This document shows, piece by piece, positions 1-35,051 of a stretch of 35,051 nucleotides of DNA (position 1 is its first letter; the number at the start of each line of letters is the position of its first letter). The translations under genes were made by a program, and so were the position numbers. The stretch covers positions 1 to 35,051 of the forward strand of contig CAIVSK010000270.1 of the NCBI GenBank assembly GCA_903908495.1, given 5' to 3'. Below the pieces are notes generated by a model. The model was not told the origin of the DNA and did not search any database. It was given only the letters and a program-made list of their open reading frames with translations. The DNA comes from Akkermansiaceae bacterium. Its GTDB lineage: Bacteria > Verrucomicrobiota > Verrucomicrobiia > Verrucomicrobiales > Akkermansiaceae.

Positions 1-225
1 CTTGGTCTGCGGCTGCTTGGTCTGCGGCTGCTTGGTCGGCTGCTGCTTGGTCGGCTGCTGCTTGGTCGGCTGCTGCTTGGTCGGCGGCTGCTTGGTCGGC
101 GGCTGCTTGGTCGGCTGCTGCTTGGTCGGCTGCTGCTTGGTCGGCTGCTGCTTGGTCGGCTGCTGCTTGGTCGGCGGCTGCCTGGTCTGCGGCTGCTTGG
201 TCTGCGGCTGCTTGGTCGGCGGCTT
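1..225. repeat. 15-base tandem repeat, about 15 copies
   Basis: The unit on the plus strand is CTTGGTCGGCTGCTG, with variants differing at a few positions. There are 15 units between 1 and 225, and the array continues beyond the window. On the minus strand it encodes the pentapeptide DQAAA in frame with the coiled-coil gene. The unit length is a multiple of three, so copy-number change would alter protein length without breaking the frame. Confidence 0.9.
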
Positions 226-21174: not shown

Positions 21175-24100
21175 TCAGGGAGTGACCGGGATGGTGATCC
21201 GGAGTCTTGCGAATTTTCGCGGGGCTCCGGCGGAAGCAATCACTACGGTGACATCATCGGCTGCGGTTCCATTTTCCACGACGGTCAGGGGCGGGCCCGT
21301 GATGGCACCATTGGTAAGCACCAATGATGCCCACGGACCGTCCAAACTCGTGGCGCTTTCGACCGCCACCGCGTAGCTCTTGGCAGCGACAACCCGCTTG
21401 AAGTGCAGCACCAGATTCCCCGCGCTATCCAGCGTGGTCGAAATCGGGCCTGCACCGGCCGGGGTCAGCGGTGATGTTCCGGTTAGAAATTCAATGCCGT
21501 TAGGCACTCCGTCATGGTCCGGATCAGCGTCGGGCGCTTGGTCCGCGCCGATGAGCGAGGGATAGTCAGCAAGCCAGGCCTCATAGCCGGCCAGGACCGG
21601 GGTGGCGTTGACCTGGCCCGAGTTGGCGCTCTCCCCGCCGGCATTCACGGCGGAAACCACGTAGTAATAGATGGTCCCGTTGGTCAGGCCGGTGTTGATG
21701 TAGCTGCTGCCGGTTGGACTTGCGACGTTGGTGTATGGGCCGCCGCTCACTGTCGAGCGCTTCACGTTGTAGCTTGTCGCGCCGCTGGCTGCGGTCCAGC
21801 TCACGCTCGCTTGGGCGTTGCCCGGGGTGGCGGCCAAGCCGATGGGGGCCGGTGGTGCCGGGACTTGTGGGGTGGCGTTGATCTGGCCTGAGTTGGCGCT
21901 CTCCCCGCCGGCATTCACGGCGGAAACCACGTAGTAATAGGTGGTCCCGTTGGTCAGGCCGGTGTTGATGTAGCTGCTGCCGGTTGGAGATGCGACGGTG
22001 GTGAAGGAACCGCCGCTCACTGTCGAGCGCTTCACGTTGTAGCTCGTCGCGCCGCTGGCTGCGGTCCAGCTCACGCTGGCTTGGGCGTTGCCCGGGGTGA
22101 CGGCCAGACCGATGGGGGCCGGTGGTGCCGGGACTTGCGGGGTGGCGTTGACCTGGCTGGTATTGGCGCTTTCTCCGCCGGCATTCACGGCGGAAACCAC
22201 GTAGTAATAGGTGGTCCCGTTGGTCAGGCCGGTGTTGATGTAGCTGGTGCCGGTTGGACTGGCGACGGTGGTGTATGGGCCGCCGCTCAGCGTCGCGCGC
22301 TTCACTTTGTAGCTCGTTGCGCCGCTGGCTGCGGTCCAGCTCAGGCTGGTCTGCGCGTTGCCCGCAACCGCCGCCAAGCCAGTGGGGGCCGGTGGTGCCG
22401 GGACTTGCGGGGTGGCGTTGACCTGGCCGGAGTTCGCGCTTGCCCCGCCGGCATTCACGGCGGAAACCACGTAGTAATAGGTGGTCCCGTTGGTCAGGCC
22501 GGTGTTGATGTAGCTGCTGCCGGTTGGACTGGCGACGGTGGTGTATGGGCCGCCGCTCAGCGTCGCGCGCTTCACGTTGTAGCTCGTCGCGCCGCTGGCC
22601 GCGGTCCAGCTCAGGCTGGTCTGCGCGTTGCCCGCAACCGCCGCCAAGCCAGTGGGCGTCGAGGGAACCGGCGTGCCATAGACCGCGATCTCCGAGTAGC
22701 CGACCCAGCCGTTTTCCGAGGCCGGGGTGGTGAAATCAAACTTCACCGCCGCCACATTCGCCGCCAATACCCCGGTGGCCGGGGTCAGCGTCGCCCGCGT
22801 TGCCGACTGCACGGCCGCCGGATTGGCTGGATTGTAATTCACCGTGCCTAACGCAATGAATGTTGCTGGTGCGGCCACCGTTGAATAAGAAACCGTATAT
22901 GCCTGCTGATCGCGTCCGGCGTCCCTCCAGCCACCATAGACCATGATCTGGGTCAGCCCGTAGCCACCAGCACTGGCGGGAAGGGTGTAAACCACCGACG
23001 AACCGGATCCATAGGCATTGCCACATGATAGATAGTTGGGCCCGCTGTCTCCTCCAGCGGTCGGAGCGATTGCCAGACTGTCGCCAGCGGTCAGTGCGCT
23101 GGCTGTCGCGGCGGATGTATCCAAGCTGAAATTACCCGTCGAACTGGTGGGGGCCATTCCCGCAATCAGACTGTTGCTCGTGTCGAATGGCCAACTTGGT
23201 AGAAAATTGGTAAAGCCCCCCAAGCCGGTTTGTGCGGCCATTGAGGTCACCACGTTGTTCACTGCTGCCGCCACGCTGTTAACCTTGAGAGAACTGGGCG
23301 AGCTGAGCGCCACACCGTTGGCATTGGATGCCTGAAGCTGGTAGCTTGCCGTGTCGCTCAATTGCAGGTTGGTCAACGTCAATGTGGCATTCGTCGCTCC
23401 GGAAATATTGCTCGCCACACCGTTGGTGACTTTTTTCCATTGATAGGACAACGGAGCGGTGCCGGTGATGGCCGCGGTGAAAGTCACCTGGCCGCCCACC
23501 ACGTCCGCAGCGCTCGCCGGCAACGTGTTGGTGGTCACCACCGGTCCGACGGATGTGCCATATGCGGCGATTTCCGAATAGCCACAATATCCATTCTCAG
23601 AAGTCGGCGTCGTGAAATCAAACTTCAACGCCGCAACGTTGCTGGCCAGCGGAGCGGCACTCGCCGAGCTCAAGGTCGCCCGCGTGGCGGATTGAACGGA
23701 ATCGGGATTGGCCGGGTTGTAGTCAACGCTCGCCAACAGGACGAAGTTGGTGGGATCGGCCACGGTGGAGTAATAGACGGTGTAGGCCTGTTGATCGCGG
23801 CCTGCATCGCACCAACCGCCATACACCACGATGTTGGAAAGTGCATAGCCGCCGGCGGATGCCGCGAGTGTATATGTGACCGACTGCCCCCCATTGGTAT
23901 TGCCGCATGAGACTTGGGTCACGGTGGGTGCCCCTAGACCATAGGTCAAGCGGCCAAAGGTGCCATCGGTCAGCACGCCGACGTTGTGCTCGAAATTGCC
24001 ACCTCCCACCGCGCTGGGCGATTGGCCGGCAATCAGACTGCCGGGTGCCACGGTCCAGGTGGGGGAGAAATTCCCGCTCACGCTGCCAAGCCCGGTTTGG

Positions 24101-27100
24101 GCGGCGTAGCTGGTGATGACGTTGGCCACCGCTGCGGCCGCGCTGGAGACGGTGAGCGGAATCGCGGTGCTCACCGCGCTGCCAAATGAATTCGCCGCCT
24201 CTAACCGGTACAAACCCGTGTCACTCAATTGCAGGTTAGAGACGGTCAATGTCGGGGTCGTCGCCCCTGCGATATCCGTCAATTGACCGCCAACAATCTT
24301 TTGCCACTGATAGGTGACCGGCTGGGTGCTGCTGAAGGCCGCCGACAAGGTCACCTGGCTGCCCACCACATCCGCCGCGCTCGCCGGTAGGGTGTCGCTC
24401 ATCAAGGTCGGTGTCGGGGTGGTTGCCAGCGGCGGACTGATGCTCACCTTGTCAATGAAAACGGTGTTGTCGCCGCCGTTCAAGTTGGTGCCTGTAAAGG
24501 CCAACGTGTGTGCCACCGCCGATGCCGTGAAACTCGCCGTGTAGGTGGTGAAACTGGTGGCAGCCGCTCCTGGGTTGTTAGAGCTGATCGCCGTGCCATC
24601 AATATCGACGTTCCACGTCTGGCCGCCGTTTTGGACCGCCCCGCGCTGCGCCGCCGAGTATGTGAGGGTGTAACTGGTGCCCGGCACAAAACCTGACAGG
24701 CTCTGGCTCAAGCTGCCGCTGCGTTGCACCCAGGCGGTCTGGCTGCCTTCCGGTGCATTGGGATTGTTAAAGCCGCTGCCATTGGCGGCGATGCCGGTGG
24801 CATCAAACGTCCAGGACGCGCCACCGGGAGAGGCTGAATAGTTGCCGGAACCCAGGCTGGGACTTTCAAATCCCAAATTCGGGTTGGCGTTTGCGACGAC
24901 GATGTCGACGGGAATGGAATCCGCAAAGCTGCCATTGTTGAAGAGCACCCGGGCCACCATGGAATGAGCACCCTCGCCGGCATTCGCCCACGCACAGCTG
25001 TAGGGCGCGTTGGCGCTTTGGCTGATCATGGCGTCGTCGATATAGAACTGCACGCCATTGATGAGGTTGCCATTGGCGGTCACTGACGCCGCCAGATTGA
25101 CCGGCGCATGGGCCGCAAAAACGCTGTTGTTCGCGGGGTTGGCCAAGGCAACCCCGGCGGCCACCGGTTGCAACGGCGACAGCAGGCTGAGGGTGACGTT
25201 GTCGATGAACACGGTGTTGTCGCCACCGGCCAGATCGGTTCCGACAAAAGTGAGCGTGTGGGTGGCTGCGGTGGCCACGAAGATGGCCGTGTAGGGGGTG
25301 TAGCTGGTGCTGCCCGGGCTGTTGGATTGAATCACCGAACTATCGATTTTCACATTCCACGATTCGCCACCATTGCTGCCTGCCCTCTGTGCTGCCGAGT
25401 AACCCAGCGTGTAAGTCTTGCCAATCGTTAAGCCCGATAGAGTTTGGGAAATGGAGCCGAACTCCTGGATAAACGCCGCCTGGGTTCCCAGCGGCGCGTT
25501 GGGGTTGGAAAAGCCGCTGCCATTGGCGACGATGCCCGAGCCGTTGGGGCTGGCACCATTGAATGCCCACGAGCCGCCCGTAGGATTGTAGCGATAGTTT
25601 CCGGTCCCAATCCCCGGGGCTTCAAAGCTGGAATTCAAGATCGGCGTGGCGACGCTGATCTGCACGTTGTCGATGAACACGGTGTTGTCGCCGCCAGCAA
25701 GATCGGTTCCCACAAAGGCAAGCGTGTGGGTCGTGGTGGTGGCGGTGAAGGTGGCGCTATAGCTGGTGAAGTTGGTTGATCCCGGGGTGTGGGTTTTGAT
25801 CACCGTGCCGTCGATGACGACGTTCCACGACTCACCAGTCTGCGACCCGCGTTGCGCTGCAGCGTAAGAAATGGTGTAGAGCGTCCCCGGGGTGAAGCCG
25901 GCGAAGGTTTGTGAGATGGCGCCAAACTCCTGGATGAATGCCGCCTGCACACCTTCCGGGGCATTCGGATTGGAAAACCCGCTGCCGTTGGAGACAATTC
26001 CCGAGCCGCTGGGACTGGTGCCTGCGAAGGTCCATCCGCCCCCGCCGGTGGGATTGTATTGAAAGGTGCCTGCGCTCATGATCGGGGATTCAAAGCCGCC
26101 TGCCACCGTCAGTGCCAAGCTGCCCGCTTCCGTTGAGTTATAGCTTTCGCCATTCGCGTTGACTGCCGATACCACGTAGTAATATGTCACCCCATTGGTC
26201 AGGGCCCCATCGGTATAACTGGTGCCGGTCGGACTGGCCAGCGTCGTGTAAGGTCCGCCATGAGTGGTCGATCGTTTCACGTGATAGCGGGTCGCACCAA
26301 AGCTTCCGGCCCACGCCAGGTCAATCCGCAAACTGCTGTCCAAGGTGGCGGTCAAGGTCGTTGGCACCGGTGCATATAATTGTTGCACGGCGACGACGAC
26401 GCGCCGGTTGGATTCCGTCAGTGCCGGGTTGTTCACATTGGTGATGTTCATGAACAACTCGAACTGTGCCGCATAGAGAGACGGATTGGCCGCCAGCGCG
26501 TAGTAGTCGAGCAGGGTGTTGTCGGCCACGCGGACCACGCCGGAGTTGTCCACGGAAAACGTCGGGCCGGTATTGCCCGCGGCAATCGCATAGACCAACG
26601 GGCTGCCGTTGGGATTGGTGGCGGCCACCGAGCCGACCACCGTGTTGTTAGCCGCGTGTTCCGCCACGCTCAAGCGGCTGGGCATCCGCGCTCCCGCCAC
26701 ACTGCCGGAGATGGAATAATAGCCGAGGCTCGCGTAGCTCGAAAATCCATTGGTCACCGGATCGTTTTTCCCGGCACCGGTGACGCGGAAGGTATAAGTT
26801 CCCGCTGGCAGGTTGGCCGTGATGGTGGAAGACACCTGGTCCTGGGCGTTGTTGCTCGCGATGACGGCATCACTCGCATCCGCCAAGCTGGCCATGGTGG
26901 CCAGGTCGCCCCAGTCACCGACGGCCACCGGGCTGACCGTCAAGCTGACCGCGCCGCCGGTGGTGGTGGTGAATTGGAAAGCATCGGTGTCGTCGCTGCG
27001 CTCGATCACGCCCTCGGCAAACACCGTGTGGTCGTTGTTAATTTCCAGATAGCGCGAGGTCGCCAGCGTGTCGCCGGTGTCGTCGCTGCGGTAATGCACA

Positions 27101-28455
27101 TTGTTGTTAGCCGTGGTTATCGTCTGCAACTCGTCCTGGTGTTGGCTGGCATTGTTGAATTCGCCTTTGGCCCAGGTGCTCAGCGCCTGATAGTAACCGA
27201 CCCCCATGATCGGAGCCCAACCGGTCTGGCCGCCGCCCTGACCTCCATAGTACTCATTGTGGGTGCCATCGGGGAAATCCTGGGTCTGATGGGCCAGGCC
27301 GAGCGTGTGGCCGGGTTCATGTGCGCCGACTTCTGCGGCGGCCTTGCCGGCACAGTAGACTGACCAGCAGACCGTGTCGTTGCCCCAGTTCCAGGACCCG
27401 AAATACGCCACGCCGGCGGCAGTCACCGGGGTGGTGGTGAAACAGCAACGCTGGCGGCTTGCCGCCGGGGCTGCCTGAAACACTTTGATATCGGTAGTCA
27501 CGTTGATGTTGAACGGCATGTAATCTTCCGCCACCCGCTTCCAAACGTCCTTGATCGTATCGTTGCTCACGTTGGGGCGCGCATAAGTAACGCCACCCCA
27601 ACCGGAGGTATAGCCACCGGCAAAATCCAGCAGCAGCACGGCGGGTGAGCCGGGATAACTCTGCAGGGAAACTATGTCGGAGTTGTAGCTCGGCACATAG
27701 TACGGCACCAGATCGGGACGTAGGGGGACGATATTCCCGGTCTCCTCAGCCGCGTCTTGTGCCGCCTGCAGCTTCGCCGGATCGACGGCCGGCATATCCA
27801 TGCAAATAACTTCGTCGAGCCGCCGTTGCCAGAATTCCGGGGCGCCGTCGGCTGCGGTTGGTTCAATGCGGTAGGCGGTCTTGCTCGCCGGAAACTCCAC
27901 CACACCGACCGCCTTGCCGGCCTTGCCACCGGCGGGTGGTGTGAGGAAGAAGAACCTGCCGGCCTCCGGTGCTGTTAGCTCGCCGGAGACATAACTCACC
28001 GCGCCGTCCCGGAGTTGAATGATTTTGACGGATCCGGCAGCCATGACGCCGTTGGTGAGTTCAAAGCGAACTGGATCACCGTCCTTCGCGTGTTGGAAAC
28101 TTTCGATATAGCCCACATCCCATGCGCGCTTGGATTTGCCGCGCTCACGCAAGCCGCCGGCATAGGGGCTCACCGCAATATCCATCTCGCGGGCAACTCC
28201 AGCCTGAGGAGGCGCAGGGGCGGTAGCAACTGTGGTGGCGGCAGTTGTGGGTTGGCGGGGTCCGGTGGTGTTGGCGACTGACGTGCTTGCAGCAGGGGGT
28301 ACCGCGGGCTTGCTGCTGACCGTCGCTGCCGTCGCGAGTGGGGATGGCGCGCGGGAGGCAGGCGCGTGCTGGTGCCAACGCAGCGCTCCAGCGCACAGCG
28401 CCACGACAAGGCAGAGCCCGATGATCCGACGCGAGAAGAAGGATGGGGGTGACAT
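21175..28455 (-). CDS. Giant exported metzincin protease with PPC, cadherin, Ig and Fn3 modules
   Basis: The 2426-residue protein starts at 28455 (MSPPSFFSRRIIGLCLVVAL) with a signal or anchor helix. The catalytic domain spans about residues 250-455: zinc site HEPGHTLGLAH at 379-389, a full metzincin HExxHxxGxxH, and Met-turn WAPIMGVGYY with Met417. Then come a PPC-type domain (about 470-595), a cadherin-like domain (595-695), one Fn3 (695-782), two lectin-like NPNAPEG/GESWNV modules (786-936, 939-1089), an Ig-like domain (1092-1188), a third lectin-like module (1189-1339), two Ig plus discoidin-like pairs (1347-1636, 1639-1929), four near-identical Fn3 domains (1930-2286) and a tail with a DADPDHDGVPNGIEF calcium loop. 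No PEP-CTERM or sorting helix is visible. It probably degrades external protein while the modules bind carbohydrate or surfaces. Domain limits are estimates. Confidence 0.88.
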   Translation of the reverse strand: MSPPSFFSRRIIGLCLVVALCAGALRWHQHAPASRAPSPLATAATVSSKPAVPPAASTSVANTTGPRQPTTAATTVATAPAPPQAGVAREMDIAVSPYAGGLRERGKSKRAWDVGYIESFQHAKDGDPVRFELTNGVMAAGSVKIIQLRDGAVSYVSGELTAPEAGRFFFLTPPAGGKAGKAVGVVEFPASKTAYRIEPTAADGAPEFWQRRLDEVICMDMPAVDPAKLQAAQDAAEETGNIVPLRPDLVPYYVPSYNSDIVSLQSYPGSPAVLLLDFAGGYTSGWGGVTYARPNVSNDTIKDVWKRVAEDYMPFNINVTTDIKVFQAAPAASRQRCCFTTTPVTAAGVAYFGSWNWGNDTVCWSVYCAGKAAAEVGAHEPGHTLGLAHQTQDFPDGTHNEYYGGQGGGQTGWAPIMGVGYYQALSTWAKGEFNNASQHQDELQTITTANNNVHYRSDDTGDTLATSRYLEINNDHTVFAEGVIERSDDTDAFQFTTTTGGAVSLTVSPVAVGDWGDLATMASLADASDAVIASNNAQDQVSSTITANLPAGTYTFRVTGAGKNDPVTNGFSSYASLGYYSISGSVAGARMPSRLSVAEHAANNTVVGSVAATNPNGSPLVYAIAAGNTGPTFSVDNSGVVRVADNTLLDYYALAANPSLYAAQFELFMNITNVNNPALTESNRRVVVAVQQLYAPVPTTLTATLDSSLRIDLAWAGSFGATRYHVKRSTTHGGPYTTLASPTGTSYTDGALTNGVTYYYVVSAVNANGESYNSTEAGSLALTVAGGFESPIMSAGTFQYNPTGGGGWTFAGTSPSGSGIVSNGSGFSNPNAPEGVQAAFIQEFGAISQTFAGFTPGTLYTISYAAAQRGSQTGESWNVVIDGTVIKTHTPGSTNFTSYSATFTATTTTHTLAFVGTDLAGGDNTVFIDNVQISVATPILNSSFEAPGIGTGNYRYNPTGGSWAFNGASPNGSGIVANGSGFSNPNAPLGTQAAFIQEFGSISQTLSGLTIGKTYTLGYSAAQRAGSNGGESWNVKIDSSVIQSNSPGSTSYTPYTAIFVATAATHTLTFVGTDLAGGDNTVFIDNVTLSLLSPLQPVAAGVALANPANNSVFAAHAPVNLAASVTANGNLINGVQFYIDDAMISQSANAPYSCAWANAGEGAHSMVARVLFNNGSFADSIPVDIVVANANPNLGFESPSLGSGNYSASPGGASWTFDATGIAANGSGFNNPNAPEGSQTAWVQRSGSLSQSLSGFVPGTSYTLTYSAAQRGAVQNGGQTWNVDIDGTAISSNNPGAAATSFTTYTASFTASAVAHTLAFTGTNLNGGDNTVFIDKVSISPPLATTPTPTLMSDTLPASAADVVGSQVTLSAAFSSTQPVTYQWQKIVGGQLTDIAGATTPTLTVSNLQLSDTGLYRLEAANSFGSAVSTAIPLTVSSAAAAVANVITSYAAQTGLGSVSGNFSPTWTVAPGSLIAGQSPSAVGGGNFEHNVGVLTDGTFGRLTYGLGAPTVTQVSCGNTNGGQSVTYTLAASAGGYALSNIVVYGGWCDAGRDQQAYTVYYSTVADPTNFVLLASVDYNPANPDSVQSATRATLSSASAAPLASNVAALKFDFTTPTSENGYCGYSEIAAYGTSVGPVVTTNTLPASAADVVGGQVTFTAAITGTAPLSYQWKKVTNGVASNISGATNATLTLTNLQLSDTASYQLQASNANGVALSSPSSLKVNSVAAAVNNVVTSMAAQTGLGGFTNFLPSWPFDTSNSLIAGMAPTSSTGNFSLDTSAATASALTAGDSLAIAPTAGGDSGPNYLSCGNAYGSGSSVVYTLPASAGGYGLTQIMVYGGWRDAGRDQQAYTVSYSTVAAPATFIALGTVNYNPANPAAVQSATRATLTPATGVLAANVAAVKFDFTTPASENGWVGYSEIAVYGTPVPSTPTGLAAVAGNAQTSLSWTAASGATSYNVKRATLSGGPYTTVASPTGSSYINTGLTNGTTYYYVVSAVNAGGASANSGQVNATPQVPAPPAPTGLAAVAGNAQTSLSWTAASGATSYKVKRATLSGGPYTTVASPTGTSYINTGLTNGTTYYYVVSAVNAGGESANTSQVNATPQVPAPPAPIGLAVTPGNAQASVSWTAASGATSYNVKRSTVSGGSFTTVASPTGSSYINTGLTNGTTYYYVVSAVNAGGESANSGQINATPQVPAPPAPIGLAATPGNAQASVSWTAASGATSYNVKRSTVSGGPYTNVASPTGSSYINTGLTNGTIYYYVVSAVNAGGESANSGQVNATPVLAGYEAWLADYPSLIGADQAPDADPDHDGVPNGIEFLTGTSPLTPAGAGPISTTLDSAGNLVLHFKRVVAAKSYAVAVESATSLDGPWASLVLTNGAITGPPLTVVENGTAADDVTVVIASAGAPRKFARLRITIPVTP
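21598..22660. repeat. Four 270-base tandem repeats encoding Fn3 domains
   Basis: Nearly identical blocks recur with a period of exactly 270 bases; for example GGTGGCGTTGA recurs at 21601, 21871, 22141 and 22411. Each encodes one 90-residue fibronectin III domain of the giant protease. Core stretches of about 75 bases are almost unchanged among copies, which points to recent duplication or gene conversion. Confidence 0.93.
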
Positions 28456-29324: not shown

Positions 29325-32030
29325 TTACGGCGCGGCGGACATGGACTCGGCCTTGGCGACGGTGGCGAGGACGTCCTCGCGGATGCTCACGCCCTTGCGC
29401 TTGCTCCACCACAGCACCACCGGCGAGGCGATGAAGATGGACGAGAAGGTACCGACCACGATGCCGATGAAGATGATCACGCCGAAGTCGCGCAAGGCGG
29501 AGCCGCCGAGGAACGCGAGGATGGCCACGCTGATGAGGGTGGCGCTGGAGGTGAGCAAGGTTCGCGACAGCGTGGCGTTGATGGCCTCGTTCATGATCTT
29601 CTCCACCGAGTCGGTGCGGATCAGCAGCATTTCCCGCACCCGGTCGAACACCACGATGGTGTCACTGATCGAGTAACCGGCAATGGTCAGCACGGCACCG
29701 ACGTGGATGAGCGAGAGCTCGCCGCCCATCAGCACGACCATGCCGACGCAGATGATGACGTCATGGAAAATGGCGACGAAGCCGCCCAATGCGAACGAGA
29801 ACTCGAAGCGCATGGTCATGTAGAGGACGATGCCGATGAAGCCCATGGCGATGGCGATGAGCGATTGGATGAGGAACGAACCGCCGATGAGGGCGGAAAC
29901 TTCTTCCTGGGAGGCATCGATGGCGAAGTCGGTGGAATCGGTGACTTTGGTGCCGAGGGTGGGCACGGCCTCCAGCAGCTTGGCGCTCACCGCCGCAGTG
30001 TCCTTGGCGGCGCATCGCACGGTGACGAGGGTGACGGTGCCGGCGCTGCTGTCCTCCTTGGCGGTGGCTGGCTTGGCGAGGCCGGCCTTCAGGTCATCGA
30101 GGGTCTTCTGAACTTGCTCGAGCGGCGCTTTGGCGTCCTTGCCCAGCTGGAACACGATGCTGGCGTTATCGCCTTTGGCACCGAGGACGGGAATGGATTC
30201 GCGCAGTTTGCTGATGATGTTGCTCGCGTCCTTGATGTCCTTCTTCGCGTCATCGGTGGCGCAGCGCACGGTCAAAAGCGTGCCCGTCGTCACGTTGCTT
30301 TCCAATTGGGGATAGGCGGCTTTCGACAGCTTGATGCCGTCGATGACCTTCTGCACCGTTTCGAGCGGAATCTTGGTTTCCTTGCCGAGCAGGAAGATGA
30401 TGCGGGTGCCGCCGGTGAAGTCGATGCCCAGCGCACGCTCGCCGCGCACCCCGAAGGCGATGAATGACAGGACGATGGTGGCCAGCGCGGCACCGATGCA
30501 GATGCGGCGTTTGCCGAGGAAATCGTAGTGTGCGGACTTGATCAGGTCCAGGAAGGTGAGTTTTTTCCACCAGTTGAAATCCACCCCCCAGCGGAAGATG
30601 ACGCGGGTGACCAGAATCGCGGAGAACAACGAAGCGGTGACCCCGATGGTGAGAGTGATGGCGAAGCCCTTGATGGTGCCGCTACCCAGCCAGAAGAGGA
30701 TGAGCGCGGTGATGAGCGAGGTGATGTGGGAGTCGAAAATGGCGGTGAAGGCGTGGTCGTAGGCCGATTCGATGGCGTTCTTGATTGATTTGCCGCTGCG
30801 CATTTCCTCGCGCAAGCGTTCGTAGATGAGCACGTTGGCGTCCACCGCCATACCGATGGTCAGCACCATGCCGGCGATGCCCGGCAGCGTGAAGGTGAAC
30901 CCGAACATGGCCATCACCCCGAACAAAATCACCGTGTTGACGATCAGTCCGACGATGGCAATAATCCCTGAAATATGGTAATAAATCAGCACGAACAGGA
31001 AGGTCAGTGATAGCGCGAGCACGCCGGCGACGAGCCCTTGCTTGACCACCGCGGAACCGAGGGTGGGGGAGACGTTGCGCATTTCATCGACCTTCAAGGC
31101 GTTTTCCAGCGGGTTCATCAGCGCGTTTGAGAGGCTTTGGACCTCACCGGGCTCATGCAGCCCTTCCACAATGAATTGCTTGCCCAGCGGCGTCGAGTTG
31201 ACCACCGGCGCACTGATGACGGTGCCGTCGAGGACGATGGCGATCCGGTCCCGGCGCGGGGTCATGTCCTTGGTGAGGGCGATCATTTTGTCGGTACCTT
31301 CGTTGTTGAGGGTGATGGAGACCGCGTCGGCCTGTTGCGGCGACGGGGTGGCCAGGGCGATGTCGTGGCCGCCGAGGGCGGAGCGCTTGTTCAGCAGGAT
31401 CGGCGTTTTCATCTCGTTGCCGTCCGCATCCTTGTGCTTGTAAATGAACGCTTTGTAGCCAGGAACGATTTCAGCCCCAGATTCGACGCGGGCGGCGAGG
31501 GTCTTGCCATCGGGGCCGGTCTCGTCGTTGCGTGAGCTCACCTCGCGCAGTTCCAGCTTGGCCACCTTTTCAAGCGTCAGGCGGATTTTGGCGCTTTCTT
31601 CCGGTTCGACGCCGGGCATTTGCAGCAGGATGCCGGCGGTGCCTTGGCGGGCAATGATCGGCTCGGCCGTGCCCATGCCGTTGAGGCGTTTTTCGATGAC
31701 CATGATCGCCTGGTCGACTTGCGACGGGGTGACGGGCATTTCGCCGCCATTGGCATCGGTTCGCGGTTGGATGTGCAGCGAAAACGACGAACCGCCGAGG
31801 ATGTCGATCCCGCCCTTGAGCCGCTCCTTGGGCGGCAGGGTCGCCAGCACGCAGAGCGACACCACGCCGATGGTCAGGATGGTGCCGATGTTGCGTTTGC
31901 GGCGCTCGATTTCGGTCGCAAAATACCAGAAAAACAACAGCATCAGGACCAAACCGACAACAAACAAGGTCAGCGGATCTTCGTAAAAGGACTTGGCAGT
32001 AGCGACGGCTAGAAACATGGCAGGATGCAT
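29325..32030 (-). CDS. secDF: Protein translocase subunit SecDF (fused)
   Basis: SecDF is an inner-membrane RND-like protein that uses the proton gradient to help the Sec translocon pull proteins into the periplasm. This 901-residue fusion holds SecD then SecF, each expected to have six membrane helices. The SecD half has the P1 periplasmic domain (about residues 65-325) and the GIAGMVLTIGMAVDANVLIYE motif (quoted in part: GMAVDANVLIYERLREE) near 390-415. The SecF half has GIDFTGGTRIIFLLG and the GYSISDTIVVFDRVREM motif near 770-800. Between them the SecF periplasmic segment appears twice (about residues 545-622 and 623-692), both with PLE-VQK and LTVRCA-type strings. ATGs at 32030 or 32018 are possible. 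It ends the tgt-yajC-secD'-secDF operon. Confidence 0.95.
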   Translation of the reverse strand: MHPAMFLAVATAKSFYEDPLTLFVVGLVLMLLFFWYFATEIERRKRNIGTILTIGVVSLCVLATLPPKERLKGGIDILGGSSFSLHIQPRTDANGGEMPVTPSQVDQAIMVIEKRLNGMGTAEPIIARQGTAGILLQMPGVEPEESAKIRLTLEKVAKLELREVSSRNDETGPDGKTLAARVESGAEIVPGYKAFIYKHKDADGNEMKTPILLNKRSALGGHDIALATPSPQQADAVSITLNNEGTDKMIALTKDMTPRRDRIAIVLDGTVISAPVVNSTPLGKQFIVEGLHEPGEVQSLSNALMNPLENALKVDEMRNVSPTLGSAVVKQGLVAGVLALSLTFLFVLIYYHISGIIAIVGLIVNTVILFGVMAMFGFTFTLPGIAGMVLTIGMAVDANVLIYERLREEMRSGKSIKNAIESAYDHAFTAIFDSHITSLITALILFWLGSGTIKGFAITLTIGVTASLFSAILVTRVIFRWGVDFNWWKKLTFLDLIKSAHYDFLGKRRICIGAALATIVLSFIAFGVRGERALGIDFTGGTRIIFLLGKETKIPLETVQKVIDGIKLSKAAYPQLESNVTTGTLLTVRCATDDAKKDIKDASNIISKLRESIPVLGAKGDNASIVFQLGKDAKAPLEQVQKTLDDLKAGLAKPATAKEDSSAGTVTLVTVRCAAKDTAAVSAKLLEAVPTLGTKVTDSTDFAIDASQEEVSALIGGSFLIQSLIAIAMGFIGIVLYMTMRFEFSFALGGFVAIFHDVIICVGMVVLMGGELSLIHVGAVLTIAGYSISDTIVVFDRVREMLLIRTDSVEKIMNEAINATLSRTLLTSSATLISVAILAFLGGSALRDFGVIIFIGIVVGTFSSIFIASPVVLWWSKRKGVSIREDVLATVAKAESMSAAP
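31131..31563. repeat. Direct repeat, copy in secDF (P1 domain)
   Basis: This part of secDF, coding for the second half of the SecD P1 domain, is highly similar in DNA to 32151-32583, at a constant offset of 1020 bases. Examples are GGCGATCCGGTCC against GGCGATGCGGTCC and long shared stretches around GCCGTCGAGGAC. It marks a tandem duplication of the SecD periplasmic domain. Confidence 0.85.
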
Positions 32031-32066: not shown

Positions 32067-33038
32067 TTACTTGGATTCGTTGGGTGGCGGAATGCTGCGT
32101 TCCGTCTCAATGACGACGGAAAATTCCAACGGGCACGACAGGGCGCACACGAGACTTTGCACTTCGCCGGGTTCGCGCAGACCTTCGATGATGAAGCTTT
32201 TGCCCAGCGGCACAAAGTTGACGACCGGGGCGCTGATGACGATGCCGTCGAGGACAATGGCGATGCGGTCCTTGCCGCGAGCCATGTCCTTGGTGAAGGC
32301 GATCATTTTGTCGGTGCCGGGTTTGTTGAGGGTGATGAACACGGCGTCGGCCTGTTGCGGCGAGGGGGTCGCCAGCGCAATATCGCCGCCGCTGATGGCG
32401 CTGCGGCGGTTCAGTAGGATCGGCGTGGTGGTTTCGTTCCCGTCCGCATCCTTGCGTGTGTACGGGTAAATCCTGTAGCCCGGGACGATTTCCTCCTTGG
32501 CCGCGACCCGTGCGGCGAGCGTTTTGCCGTCGGGGCTGGCTTCGTCGTTGCGAGTGCTGACTTCGCGGAGTTCAAGCTTGCCGGTCTTTTCGAGGAGATT
32601 TCTGACCGGCTTGGCGGCATCGGCGGCCACCCCGGGCAATTTCACCACGATGCGCTCGATGCTCTCGTCATCGCCTGCGGCGACTCGGGCATCGCGCATG
32701 CCCTGCGCCTTGAGCCGCTTGTCGAGCACCGCGATGGTCTGTTGGAGTTGCGCCTTGGTGATGAGTATGGAGGCCCCGGTGTCATCTTCGCGGGGCACTA
32801 TCCGCAACTCAAACACCGTGCCGCCGTGGGTCACGAGGGATTTTTTTGGCGTTAGAAACCCCGGCAGCTCGACGGCGGCGAGGGCACTGGCACCAAGGCC
32901 GGTGACCAGCAGACCGAGCAGGCAGGCCGGAAATCCGGCGGTGGCTGCGGCCCGCTGCAAAACCCGCCATGACCCGACGCCACCGCGGACCCATCGGGTC
33001 AGCGGGCGATCGTTGCGGGCATGGGCGGCAGCGAGCAT
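32067..33038 (-). CDS. SecD P1-domain-only paralog
   Basis: The 323-residue protein has an Arg-rich N-terminus, one hydrophobic segment (GFPACLLGLLVTGLGASAL, residues about 35-53) and a periplasmic domain strongly similar to the P1 domain of the adjacent SecDF. Shared strings include KLELREVS-RNDE, DGKTLAARV, EIVPGY, TPILLN-RSA, DIALATPSPQQADAV and LREPGEVQSL against LHEPGEVQSL. It stops where the second SecD membrane helix would begin, ending in a diverged IETERSIPPPNESK tail, so it lacks all transport helices. It lies 16 bases after yajC and 36 bases before secDF. It may be an accessory substrate-binding unit or a decaying duplicate; the intact frame and conserved core favour the former. 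Confidence 0.85.
   Translation of the reverse strand: MLAAAHARNDRPLTRWVRGGVGSWRVLQRAAATAGFPACLLGLLVTGLGASALAAVELPGFLTPKKSLVTHGGTVFELRIVPREDDTGASILITKAQLQQTIAVLDKRLKAQGMRDARVAAGDDESIERIVVKLPGVAADAAKPVRNLLEKTGKLELREVSTRNDEASPDGKTLAARVAAKEEIVPGYRIYPYTRKDADGNETTTPILLNRRSAISGGDIALATPSPQQADAVFITLNKPGTDKMIAFTKDMARGKDRIAIVLDGIVISAPVVNFVPLGKSFIIEGLREPGEVQSLVCALSCPLEFSVVIETERSIPPPNESK
32151..32583. repeat. Direct repeat, copy in the SecD P1 paralog
   Basis: This is the partner of the secDF stretch 31131-31563, 1020 bases away and in the same orientation. Differences fall mostly at third codon positions, which suggests selection on protein sequence after duplication. Confidence 0.85.
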
Positions 33039-33054: not shown

Positions 33055-33393
33055 TTACTTGGACTCGCGCTTGTGGACGGCCGCGATGGCGACTTTGTCG
33101 AACTCGATCATGGTGCCTTCAGAGACCTTGATGACCACGGTGTGCTCCTTGATGTTGTGGACCAAACCGTGGATGCCGGAGGAGGTCACCACGCGGTCGC
33201 CGGTTTGGAGGGCGGCGATGCGGGCTGCCATTTCCTTGCGCTGGCGCTGTTGCGGGCGGATGAGCAGGAAATAGAACATCACGAACATCAGGCCCATCAT
33301 GACCAGCGGGTTGCCTAACAGGCCGCCGATGCCGTTGACGGGGGTGGCGTCGGCGGCGGCAAGGATCGTGGAAAGCGTGGGGAATGCGGTCAT
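33055..33393 (-). CDS. yajC: Sec translocon accessory protein YajC
   Basis: YajC is a small single-pass inner-membrane protein that associates with SecDF and the SecYEG holotranslocon. The 112-residue protein has a periplasmic N-terminus, one membrane helix (PLVMMGLMFVMFYFLLI, residues about 29-45), the invariant FLLIRPQQRQRKE motif at its cytoplasmic end, and a C-terminal beta-rich domain (LQTGDRVVTSSGIHGLV). Its ATG overlaps the tgt stop codon by four bases, so it is translationally coupled to tgt. Confidence 0.95.
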   Translation of the reverse strand: MTAFPTLSTILAAADATPVNGIGGLLGNPLVMMGLMFVMFYFLLIRPQQRQRKEMAARIAALQTGDRVVTSSGIHGLVHNIKEHTVVIKVSEGTMIEFDKVAIAAVHKRESK

Positions 33394-34523
33394 GGGGCAG
33401 TGGGGTGGGTGTAGCGTTGGATGAAAGAGTCTTTGAAAGTCTGGTAGGTGCCGTCGGTGATGGCATCGCGCGCACCAGCAACGAGGCGGAGGAAGAAATG
33501 CAAATTATGGAAAGAAAGCAACCGCAAAGCGAGAATTTCGCCAGAGCGAAACAAGTGGCGGAGGTAGGCGCGGGAAAAACCGGCCACGTGGGGGTGGGCG
33601 GATTCGCACAACGGGCGGGGGTCTTTGGCGTGGATGAGGTTTTTGATGTGAAGCGGGCCGTCGAGGGTGAAGGCGATGCCGTGGCGCGCCACGCGGGTGG
33701 GCATCACGCAATCGAAGAGGTCCACGCCGCGGGCGATCATCTCGAGGATTTGCGGCGGGGTGCCCAGGCCCATGGCGTATCGTGGCTTGGTCTGCGGCAG
33801 GAAAGGCACCGCGTTTTCGATGGCGCGGAACATTTCGTGTTGTGGTTCGCCCACGGATACCCCGCCGATCGCGTAGCCGTCGAAGTCGAGCGCGACGAGT
33901 TCACGCGCCGATTGTTCGCGCAAATCGGCAAACACCGAGCCCTGAACAATCCCAAAATGGTGTTGGCGGCCATCGCCGGAGCGGGGTTGGTTGGCCTCGA
34001 CCCAATCCTTGCAGCGCCGCGCCCAGCGACTGGTCAGCGCCATCGACTTGGCGGCATAGGCCTCGTCGCAGGGGTAGGGCGGGCATTCGTCGAAGAGCAT
34101 CGCGATGTCGGCACCCAGGGCGGCCTGGATGTCCATGCTCAATTCCGGGGTGAGCAGCATTTTCGAGCCGTCGAGGTGGTTTTGGAAGCGCACGCCCTCC
34201 TCGGTGATTTTTCGCAGCTTGGCCAGCGACCACACTTGAAAGCCGCCGGAATCGGTCAGCAGCGGGTGCTGCCAGGTGGTGAAAGCATGCAGCCCGCCCA
34301 TCTCGCGGATCAGCTCATGGCCCGGGCGCAGCCACAGGTGATACGTGTTGCCGAGGATGATTTGGGCCCCGAGCGCCTCCAATTCCGCCGGATGCAGCGT
34401 CTTGACCGAGCCCTGGGTCCCCACCGGCATGAACATCGGCGTGCTCACCGTGCCATGCGGCAACACCAATTCACCGCGGCGGGCGGAACTGCTGGAATCG
34501 GTGGCGAGGACGGTGAAAGACAC
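33390..34523 (-). CDS. tgt: tRNA-guanine transglycosylase with altered zinc site
   Basis: Tgt exchanges guanine-34 for preQ1 in GU(N) tRNAs on the way to queuosine. I choose a GTG start at 34523 (product begins MSFTVLATDSSSSARRGEL), ten bases after AGGAG; this gives 377 residues, the usual size, while the ATG at 34571 adds 16 atypical residues. Catalytic features are Asp91 in LLTDSGGFQV and nucleophile Asp271 in VDLFDCVMPTR. The usual CxCxxC zinc cysteines are missing: equivalent positions are Ser308, His310 and Val313, with His339 (FHNLHF) kept. Cys306, His310, His312 and His339 could form another metal site. It is the first gene of the sec operon. Confidence 0.94.
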   Translation of the reverse strand: MSFTVLATDSSSSARRGELVLPHGTVSTPMFMPVGTQGSVKTLHPAELEALGAQIILGNTYHLWLRPGHELIREMGGLHAFTTWQHPLLTDSGGFQVWSLAKLRKITEEGVRFQNHLDGSKMLLTPELSMDIQAALGADIAMLFDECPPYPCDEAYAAKSMALTSRWARRCKDWVEANQPRSGDGRQHHFGIVQGSVFADLREQSARELVALDFDGYAIGGVSVGEPQHEMFRAIENAVPFLPQTKPRYAMGLGTPPQILEMIARGVDLFDCVMPTRVARHGIAFTLDGPLHIKNLIHAKDPRPLCESAHPHVAGFSRAYLRHLFRSGEILALRLLSFHNLHFFLRLVAGARDAITDGTYQTFKDSFIQRYTHPTAP

Positions 34524-34663
34524 GGGAATGCCACTCCTGATAGCCGCTGACCCCGCCCCGGCCAAGCCCAATCCGCCTCACCCACCACCCAAATTCAAAG
34601 AAATTCAAATTTCGGGCAACTTCCCCGAGCTTGCGGAGTTTGCTCACTCGCGTAGGAAATTTT

Positions 34664-34768: not shown

Positions 34769-35051
34769 ATGAAATCGAAACTCAGCATGCTGCTTGCGGC
34801 ATTTATCATCGCCCCGCTCGCCCTCGCCTGTCCAAGTGACAAGACCACGGGTCGCGACCAGACCAAGAAGGACGCCGCCACCGTTGCCGATTGCGGCAAG
34901 TGCAAGAAGGGCGACAAGGACAAGGACAAGGACGGCACCCTCGCCGAATGCGACAAGTGCAAGAAGGGCGACAAGGACAAGGATAAGGACGGCACGCTCG
35001 CCGAATGCGACAAGTGCAAGAAGGGCGACAAGGACAAGGACAAGGACGGCA
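34769..35051 (+). CDS. Exported CxxC/DKDKDKDG tandem-repeat protein (partial)
   Basis: I do not recognise a family. The ATG at 34769 opens MKSKLSMLLAAFIIAPLALAC, a signal peptide; Cys21 after LALA allows either lipid attachment or ordinary cleavage. After a short polar linker (residues 22-41) the protein is a tandem array of a 19-residue unit, CDKCKKGDKDKDKDGTLAE, with two full units and part of a third before the window ends. Each unit joins a CxxC pair with a strongly charged Asp/Lys stretch ending in DG, so metal or redox chemistry is possible: the CxxC could bind soft metals and the Asp-rich part calcium. The frame is open to the edge, and the total repeat number is unknown. A frame on the other strand over the same bases is Leu/Ser-only and spurious. 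Confidence 0.75.
   Translation, partial: MKSKLSMLLAAFIIAPLALACPSDKTTGRDQTKKDAATVADCGKCKKGDKDKDKDGTLAECDKCKKGDKDKDKDGTLAECDKCKKGDKDKDKDG
34892..35051. repeat. 57-base tandem repeat
   Basis: Units start at 34892, 34949 and 35006; the last is cut by the window edge. The copies are nearly identical in DNA (for example GGATAAGG against GGACAAGG), which suggests recent expansion. The unit is a multiple of three and stays in frame with the exported protein. Confidence 0.93.

Follow-up and report, generated by a model that had tools for sequence, protein, structure and literature searches.

The DNA analysed here, a stretch of 35,051 nucleotides from an Akkermansiaceae bacterium (contig CAIVSK010000270.1 of assembly GCA_903908495.1; hereafter, the window), carries on its minus strand the genes tgt, yajC and secDF and, between the last two, a further gene that codes for a stand-alone copy of the P1 domain of SecD (Table 1). 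As the first-pass annotation had described it, the frame of this gene is intact, with no internal stop codon in its 323 amino acids, and it is separated by 16 nt from yajC and by 36 nt from secDF. A consensus scan of the minus strand from the tgt start to secDF revealed no promoter-like site. A search of the whole genome, a 432-contig assembly with 4.8% contamination, returned only two P1 matches, the stand-alone gene and SecDF.

Table 1. Features of the tgt-yajC-P1-secDF cluster; residues kept refer to those invariant in 12 SecDF of the genus
Feature	Position	Strand	Basis and remarks
tgt	33390..34571	(-)	Profile matches; 4-base overlap with yajC
yajC	33055..33393	(-)	Profile matches
Stand-alone SecD P1 gene	32067..33038	(-)	ATG start, 323 codons; open reading frame list and genome search
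N-terminal hydrophobic segment, residues 38-56	32871..32927	(-)	KD scan; ends in an A-x-A site
SecD_1st (P1 base), residues 98-161	32556..32747	(-)	Pfam match; 15 of 28 residues kept
SecDF_P1_head, residues 202-300	32139..32435	(-)	Pfam match; 47 of 50 residues kept
secDF	29325..32030	(-)	901 aa; SecD and SecF profiles
SecDF P1 region matched by the stand-alone gene	31065..31796	(-)	SecDF residues 79-322; protein comparison
Internal tandem duplication, P4 region of the SecF half (about residues 544-693)	29952..30401	(-)	45% identity over 76 columns

A P1 domain without transport helices

Residues 72-318 of the encoded protein align with the P1 region of the neighbouring SecDF at 58% identity over 247 columns (E = 3e-90), which is far beyond chance, and both P1 subdomain profiles, PF22599 and PF21760, were matched, at 60.2 and 32.3 bits (Pfam gathering cut-offs 27 and 27). 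The Pfam scan gave no match to SecD_SecF_C, the RND-type transport helices, and the gene ends where TM2 of SecDF starts; the NCBIfam secD model TIGR01129 was matched in part, over positions 33-240 of 397, at 79.2 bits, below its cut-off of 244.4 bits. The first reading of the gene as a repeat of P1 devoid of the transport helices is thus confirmed. At the DNA level, the constant offset of 1020 bases between the gene and secDF was recovered, and the similarity extends over about 480 bases instead of the 430 or so initially proposed: eight 60-base blocks, spanning 32120-32599, are 63-87% identical, the block that follows falls to 52%, and the remaining five that were tested lie at 23-38%.

The structure of the protein was predicted from a 25-row alignment with a mean pLDDT of 88.5, and a Foldseek search with the model (E <= 0.001) returned nine matches, all of them SecDF chains. 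With VIA-align 2 the top match was 3aqo, the isolated P1 of Thermus SecDF (Z 20.6, rmsd 2.4 Å, 207 aligned), followed by four more SecDF entries with Z of 12.0-13.8 and then by a row at Z 7.3; phmmer against solved structures (E up to 0.01) found four chains, again all SecDF. The protein resembles the P1 of SecDF and SecD (PDB 3aqo, 3aqp, 5xam, 5xan, 5yhf) in its fold, in its head and base profiles and in its gene neighbourhood, but it is the product of a separate gene and has neither the transport helices nor the SecF half, so that it would lack an ion-driven stroke.

In the first 110 residues a single non-overlapping 19-residue window with KD > 1.6 was observed, at residues 38-56; windows starting at 258-266 also reach 1.99, and in the model these are strands of the P1 fold. 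The counterpart of segment 38-56 in SecDF, and in the orthologues of two genomes of the same genus, G250 and G238, is by alignment the second N-terminal segment; these two orthologues keep both N-terminal hydrophobic segments and align with SecDF from its residues 7 and 6, respectively, to the end of P1. The window copy aligns with these orthologues from residue 1, with a first segment that is less hydrophobic and has gained arginines; the model still draws a helix at 12-34, which might be amphipathic or weakly inserted. The single segment previously noted is, hence, correct for the window copy, but it does not describe a general design, since the in-operon orthologues have two and other lineages show signal-peptide-like or lipobox-like N-termini; single-pass topology is a local state and not that of the family. 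The A-x-A cleavage rule and the lipobox motif were applied by eye: in the window copy an A-x-A follows the hydrophobic stretch, preceded by a long n-region, and may be cleaved, and no lipobox was seen in this N-terminus. P1 would come to lie outside in either case, whether the segment acts as a signal anchor or is cleaved as a signal peptide.

Elsewhere in the window, the region 21175-28455 encodes a modular protein of 2426 aa with DUF642, Ig and four fn3 matches, a 270-bp tandem repeat (21598-22634) and a zinc-protease-like HExxH motif. The first-pass annotation had connected the P1 gene with the export of such giant proteins. This connection was not borne out, as the match counts in seven genomes (G000 28, G238 46, G259 11, G250 9, G254 3, G255 2 and G217, which is 71% complete, 0) do not cleanly separate P1 carriers, the non-carrier G259 having 11 against 9 in the in-operon carrier G250, and are confounded with genome size and kinship. 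At the left edge of the window (1-224) there is a 15-bp tandem repeat of about 15 copies, and at the opposite edge a plus-strand open reading frame with a signal-peptide-like start (34770-35051) runs off the window and contains a 57-bp tandem repeat (34879-35051) that codes for Cys/Lys/Asp-rich units.

Relatives in the genus and selection on the gene

Some match was found in 66 of the 73 same-genus genomes searched, and an in-operon P1 gene in three of the 73: the window genome, G250 and G238, the last being large (12.6 Mb, 6%). The order tgt-yajC-P1-secDF is therefore present in related genomes, and absence from all close relatives, which had been proposed as a mark of a decaying duplicate, does not apply. 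Copies located elsewhere were found in G254 (two, G254a and G254b), G224 (one) and G237 (a partial one resembling G254a). In a tree of 18 of the 21 genus rows (both G237 rows and G263 set aside) and ten SecDF rows, the copies of the window genome, G250, G238 and G254a formed one clade with a support of 100/99, with the G254b and G224 copies outside it. The four members share a C-terminal PPP and are set apart by five fixed differences from the 12 SecDF used for comparison. A recent duplication of the own SecDF was considered and rejected, since the sister placement fails on the whole P1 (p-AU 3e-6); grouping the window base with the own SecDF and that of G217 was likewise rejected (p-AU 0.0003), and for the head alone the same grouping was not (p-AU 0.26).

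Judged by SecDF, G217 is the closest relative (P1 region 94%), and its yajC-secDF gap measures just 35 nt; a scan of genome contigs gave one locus, an ordinary tgt-yajC-secDF. The patchy presence in the operon, together with the absence from that of G217, indicates that the gene is dispensable, and the short gap in G217 that it is easily lost; the direct repeat formed by P1 and secDF could collapse by recombination. A doubled P4 region in the SecF half is shared by 6 of 11 same-genus SecDF aligned (window, G217, G250, G259, G238 and G255; the other five are without it), that is, in all three in-operon carriers and in three genomes without an in-operon gene, so that the co-occurrence of the two traits, spread over few lineages, is a lead.

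The selection acting on the gene was evaluated by a codon model on a fixed, hand-set tree, using 240 codons and 14 of 21 sequences (set aside were G254b, G224 twice, G237 twice, G246 and G263). Omega was 0.233 for the P1 clade, which evolves faster than SecDF (0.078), and 0.20 for the window branch, and omega = 1 was rejected for both the clade (2dlnL 163) and the window tip (2dlnL 28.4). As judged from these comparisons, the gene is under purifying selection and is a copy that is neither recent nor in decay: the dN/dS check that had been suggested for the duplicate gave no signal of decay, and an omega below 1 argues against a decaying pseudogene.

The two halves of the domain differ in this respect. 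In the base (residues 79-165, 87 codons) omega was 0.365 for the P1 clade (2dlnL 28.2) versus 0.063 for SecDF, and for the window tip, on the base alone, it was 0.33, with omega = 1 rejected at just 2dlnL 6.2; in the linker and head (residues 166-304, 139 codons) it was 0.163 (2dlnL 140.6) versus 0.073. The residues invariant in the 12 SecDF of the genus tell the same story: beyond the head and base counts of Table 1, the window copy keeps 12 of 13 in the linker, 7 of 10 ahead of SecD_1st and 4 of 11 in the final stretch that leads up to TM2. Compared to its own SecDF, it is 78% identical in the head and 39% in SecD_1st; the same comparison between the SecDF of the window and of G224 gave nearly even values, 69% and 67%, so that the imbalance is a peculiarity of the free copy. 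The DNA tree of the base resolves the clade (99/93). By contrast, that of the head did not recover the four-copy clade, which was not rejected either (p-AU 0.09), and paired the G238 head with its own SecDF (90/94), suggesting that gene conversion may help to keep the heads alike.

Detached P1 genes in the family and phylum

A separate P1 frame lies beside secDF in 16 of 97 genomes of the family sample, the window genome included, as read by eye from gene-place tables; two of the 16 frames, L041 and L050, are shortened to 184 and 108 aa, their open frames counting 192 and 111 codons. In G014 and G066, P1 copies lie away from secDF. Among 99 genomes of other families of the order, at least one, G104, carries a P1 gene within this cluster too, there upstream of tgt, and among 93 genomes of the phylum outside the family one (G283) encodes a head-only, lipobox-bearing protein just upstream of yajC-secDF; for small frames of the latter sample four loci were examined (G283, G280, G345 and G336, with no match in G336).

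On a tree of 36 chosen rows, 13 of them free copies, the free-copy label must be gained or lost 10 times, each change being forced by well-supported branches; on a larger tree from hand-picked loci, with 70 of 72 prepared rows (all but the second G083 copy, L069, and the masked frame of G046), it needs 11 changes, of which 8 are forced. Because of long branches, the position of some free copies is uncertain. A single ancient, family-wide P1 gene was rejected on the 36-row tree (p-AU 2e-71 for one clade). Several free copies group with the SecDF of their own genome, for example those of G009, G014 and G058 (100/99, 99/99 and 100/99, respectively). This is not the case for G254b, which groups with the SecDF of the window genome and G250, so that transfer, or a foreign contig in the G254 assembly, is possible. 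Repeated gene conversion could mimic some of the own-genome pairings; it is less likely for G014 (8 kb off), G224 (about 440 kb off) and G254b (on another contig), which are not beside secDF.

In 12 of the 14 pairs checked (L041, L050, G254a, G104 and near-identical copies of the genus g16 were set aside) the end of the free gene lies 0-17 residues ahead of TM2 of SecDF, and G254b and G052 have short extra tails. Among the N-termini, inspected by eye, new kinds appear repeatedly: signal-peptide-like in G009 and G052, with a lipobox in eight g16 copies, G254b and G224, and with two hydrophobic segments in G022, G250, G238 and G014. The genus g16 keeps the lipobox version in 8 of 10 sampled genomes (G027 is without it and G077 gave no match at all), with omega of 0.01-0.28 in the 25 of 28 P1 pairs that converged (G037-G016, G016-G062 and G016-G083 were set aside; in G083-G046 dS is saturated); for SecDF of this genus the pairs G016-G054, G016-G083 and G054-G083 stuck at the optimiser start and others were saturated. 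The model of the g16 protein (pLDDT 84.2) also matches P1 (Z 18.0, 3.3 Å, 202 aligned).

Other P1-head proteins occur in the phylum. Those at L071:1874-3058, L144:2674-3876, L090:1333-1818, L153:828-1448 and L154:2844-3335 start, as judged by eye, with a signal-like or lipobox-like N-terminus, and some of them continue into long C-terminal parts. The 556-aa protein of L072:1185-2855 (genus g3) has a single Pfam P1 head, and its frame contains another head match that is weaker. All six share with the stand-alone gene the P1 head, a signal- or lipobox-like N-terminus and the lack of SecD helices in the frame, but they consist of the head only, or of the head with other parts, and do not lie beside secDF; no base profile was found in L144 and L072, the two scanned. 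In addition, a P1 head of G237 is fused to about 100 residues without Pfam match (L140:1-609), and the 700-bp yajC-secDF gap of G012 (L053) contains a diverged P1 match of 110 residues, 32% identical to the own SecDF.

Possible roles of a free P1

The explanation that we favour, with evenly balanced confidence, is that the motor-less P1 works in trans as a binding or docking arm at the translocon exit. A P1 without helices could not be driven by ion flow and binding is what is left to it; moreover, a retained head with a relaxed base fits binding. The gene would stem from a tandem duplication that copied only part of secDF, its 5' end, and is probably co-transcribed with secDF. The hydrophobic segment would take P1 across the inner membrane to its outer face, either staying in place as an anchor or being cleaved off as a signal peptide. 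At this face, near the SecYEG exit, the head may bind emerging preproteins, or the chaperones and outer-membrane machinery met by the SecDF head, and the protein would hold or hand over substrates with no ion-driven stroke, possibly to the benefit of export. The 'second substrate-binding arm' of the first-pass annotation is an inference of the same kind, with which the head-biased conservation would agree.

Several published data are consistent with a binding role. The P1 head holds a substrate-binding pocket, has been proposed to pull chains by movements coupled to ion influx, and contacts PpiD (PMC11470409); AlphaFold models place SurA on the P1 head (PMC9987972); and the SecDF-caused co-migration of Sec with outer-membrane fractions (Sec-BAM) was abolished by P1 removal (PMC7695460). 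PpiD/YfgM and SurA are anchored or soluble periplasmic factors by the SecYEG exit, the place proposed for the P1 protein (PMC11470409, PMC9987972), but they are different proteins, and binding by the P1 protein is our proposal. An extra copy of SecDF components is also described for Vibrio SecD2/F2 and for the fused and split SecDF of Streptomyces (PMC11470409, PMC4139356); those, however, are whole motors, whereas here P1 alone has been copied, repeatedly. By title and abstract start, no paper on a P1-only gene was found in the open-licence literature.

The same conservation pattern, head kept and base relaxed, would also fit a free P1 that took up the sites at which the SecDF head meets its partners (translocon, chaperones, BAM) with no motor behind it, damping or timing SecDF, and the shared cluster could set its dosage together with that of SecDF; however, sequence does not tell a competitor from a helper, and the relocated copies (G014, G224, G254) no longer share the place of secDF. 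We consider such a tuner unlikely. That the protein instead docks into SecDF through its base, as a second P1 of the same complex, seems to us quite improbable: the gene is adjacent, P1 is complete with its base, and the P4 of the SecF half is doubled as well in the window SecDF, but the base is precisely the relaxed part and the g16 copy has an N-terminal lipobox.

It might also be argued that partial secDF duplications arise often, linger, in part by gene conversion, and vanish, with little or no function. Patchy presence, the shortened copies L041 and L050, the diverged match in the G012 gap and the unresolved head tree are in line with this by-product. Nevertheless, the codon model speaks strongly against it for the window clade, as omega stays below 1 in residues 166-304 and also in the base, for which the tree does resolve the clade; furthermore, most sampled g16 genomes keep the gene (omega < 0.29 in converged pairs), and neither a stop at the domain edge in most pairs nor new signal-like N-termini would be expected for junk. 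We hold it, therefore, to be improbable. Least credible, and in our opinion very improbable, is a secretion monitor whose nascent chain stalls and sets the translation of the downstream secDF. VemP is likewise encoded just upstream of a secDF gene (PMC11470409), and the position of the P1 gene and the C-terminal PPP shared by its clade speak for such a monitor. In contrast to VemP, no regulated junction structure was found for the P1 gene: the P1/secDF junction RNA folds no better than shuffles in any of the three junctions tested (z 0.80, 0.91 and 1.00), so that none of them showed an RNA structure that could hide the secDF start, and on this ground an arrest peptide was rejected. Moreover, the relocated G254a retains the PPP with no secDF match in its 5.9-kb locus, and the whole folded domain is conserved.

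Returning to the trans-acting arm, the repeated spare arms of the relatives suggest that a P1 arm is able to do useful work without the motor. More broadly, and only as a tentative and rather doubtful generalization, P1 may be an autonomous export factor: within a single bacterial family it would have been separated from its motor on many independent occasions, in most cases at a common boundary, and re-tethered in the periplasm, where it would occur membrane-anchored, soluble or with a lipid anchor. The forms with a lipid anchor might get as far as the outer membrane and connect the Sec exit with outer-membrane assembly. A natural motor-less P1, with its head under selection and its base relaxed, bears on how much of SecDF function depends on the ion-driven stroke and how much on binding by P1; it would be a ready-made test of P1 acting alone, and its repeated origin offers many natural versions to compare, with two segments, with one segment, signal-peptide-like or with a lipobox.
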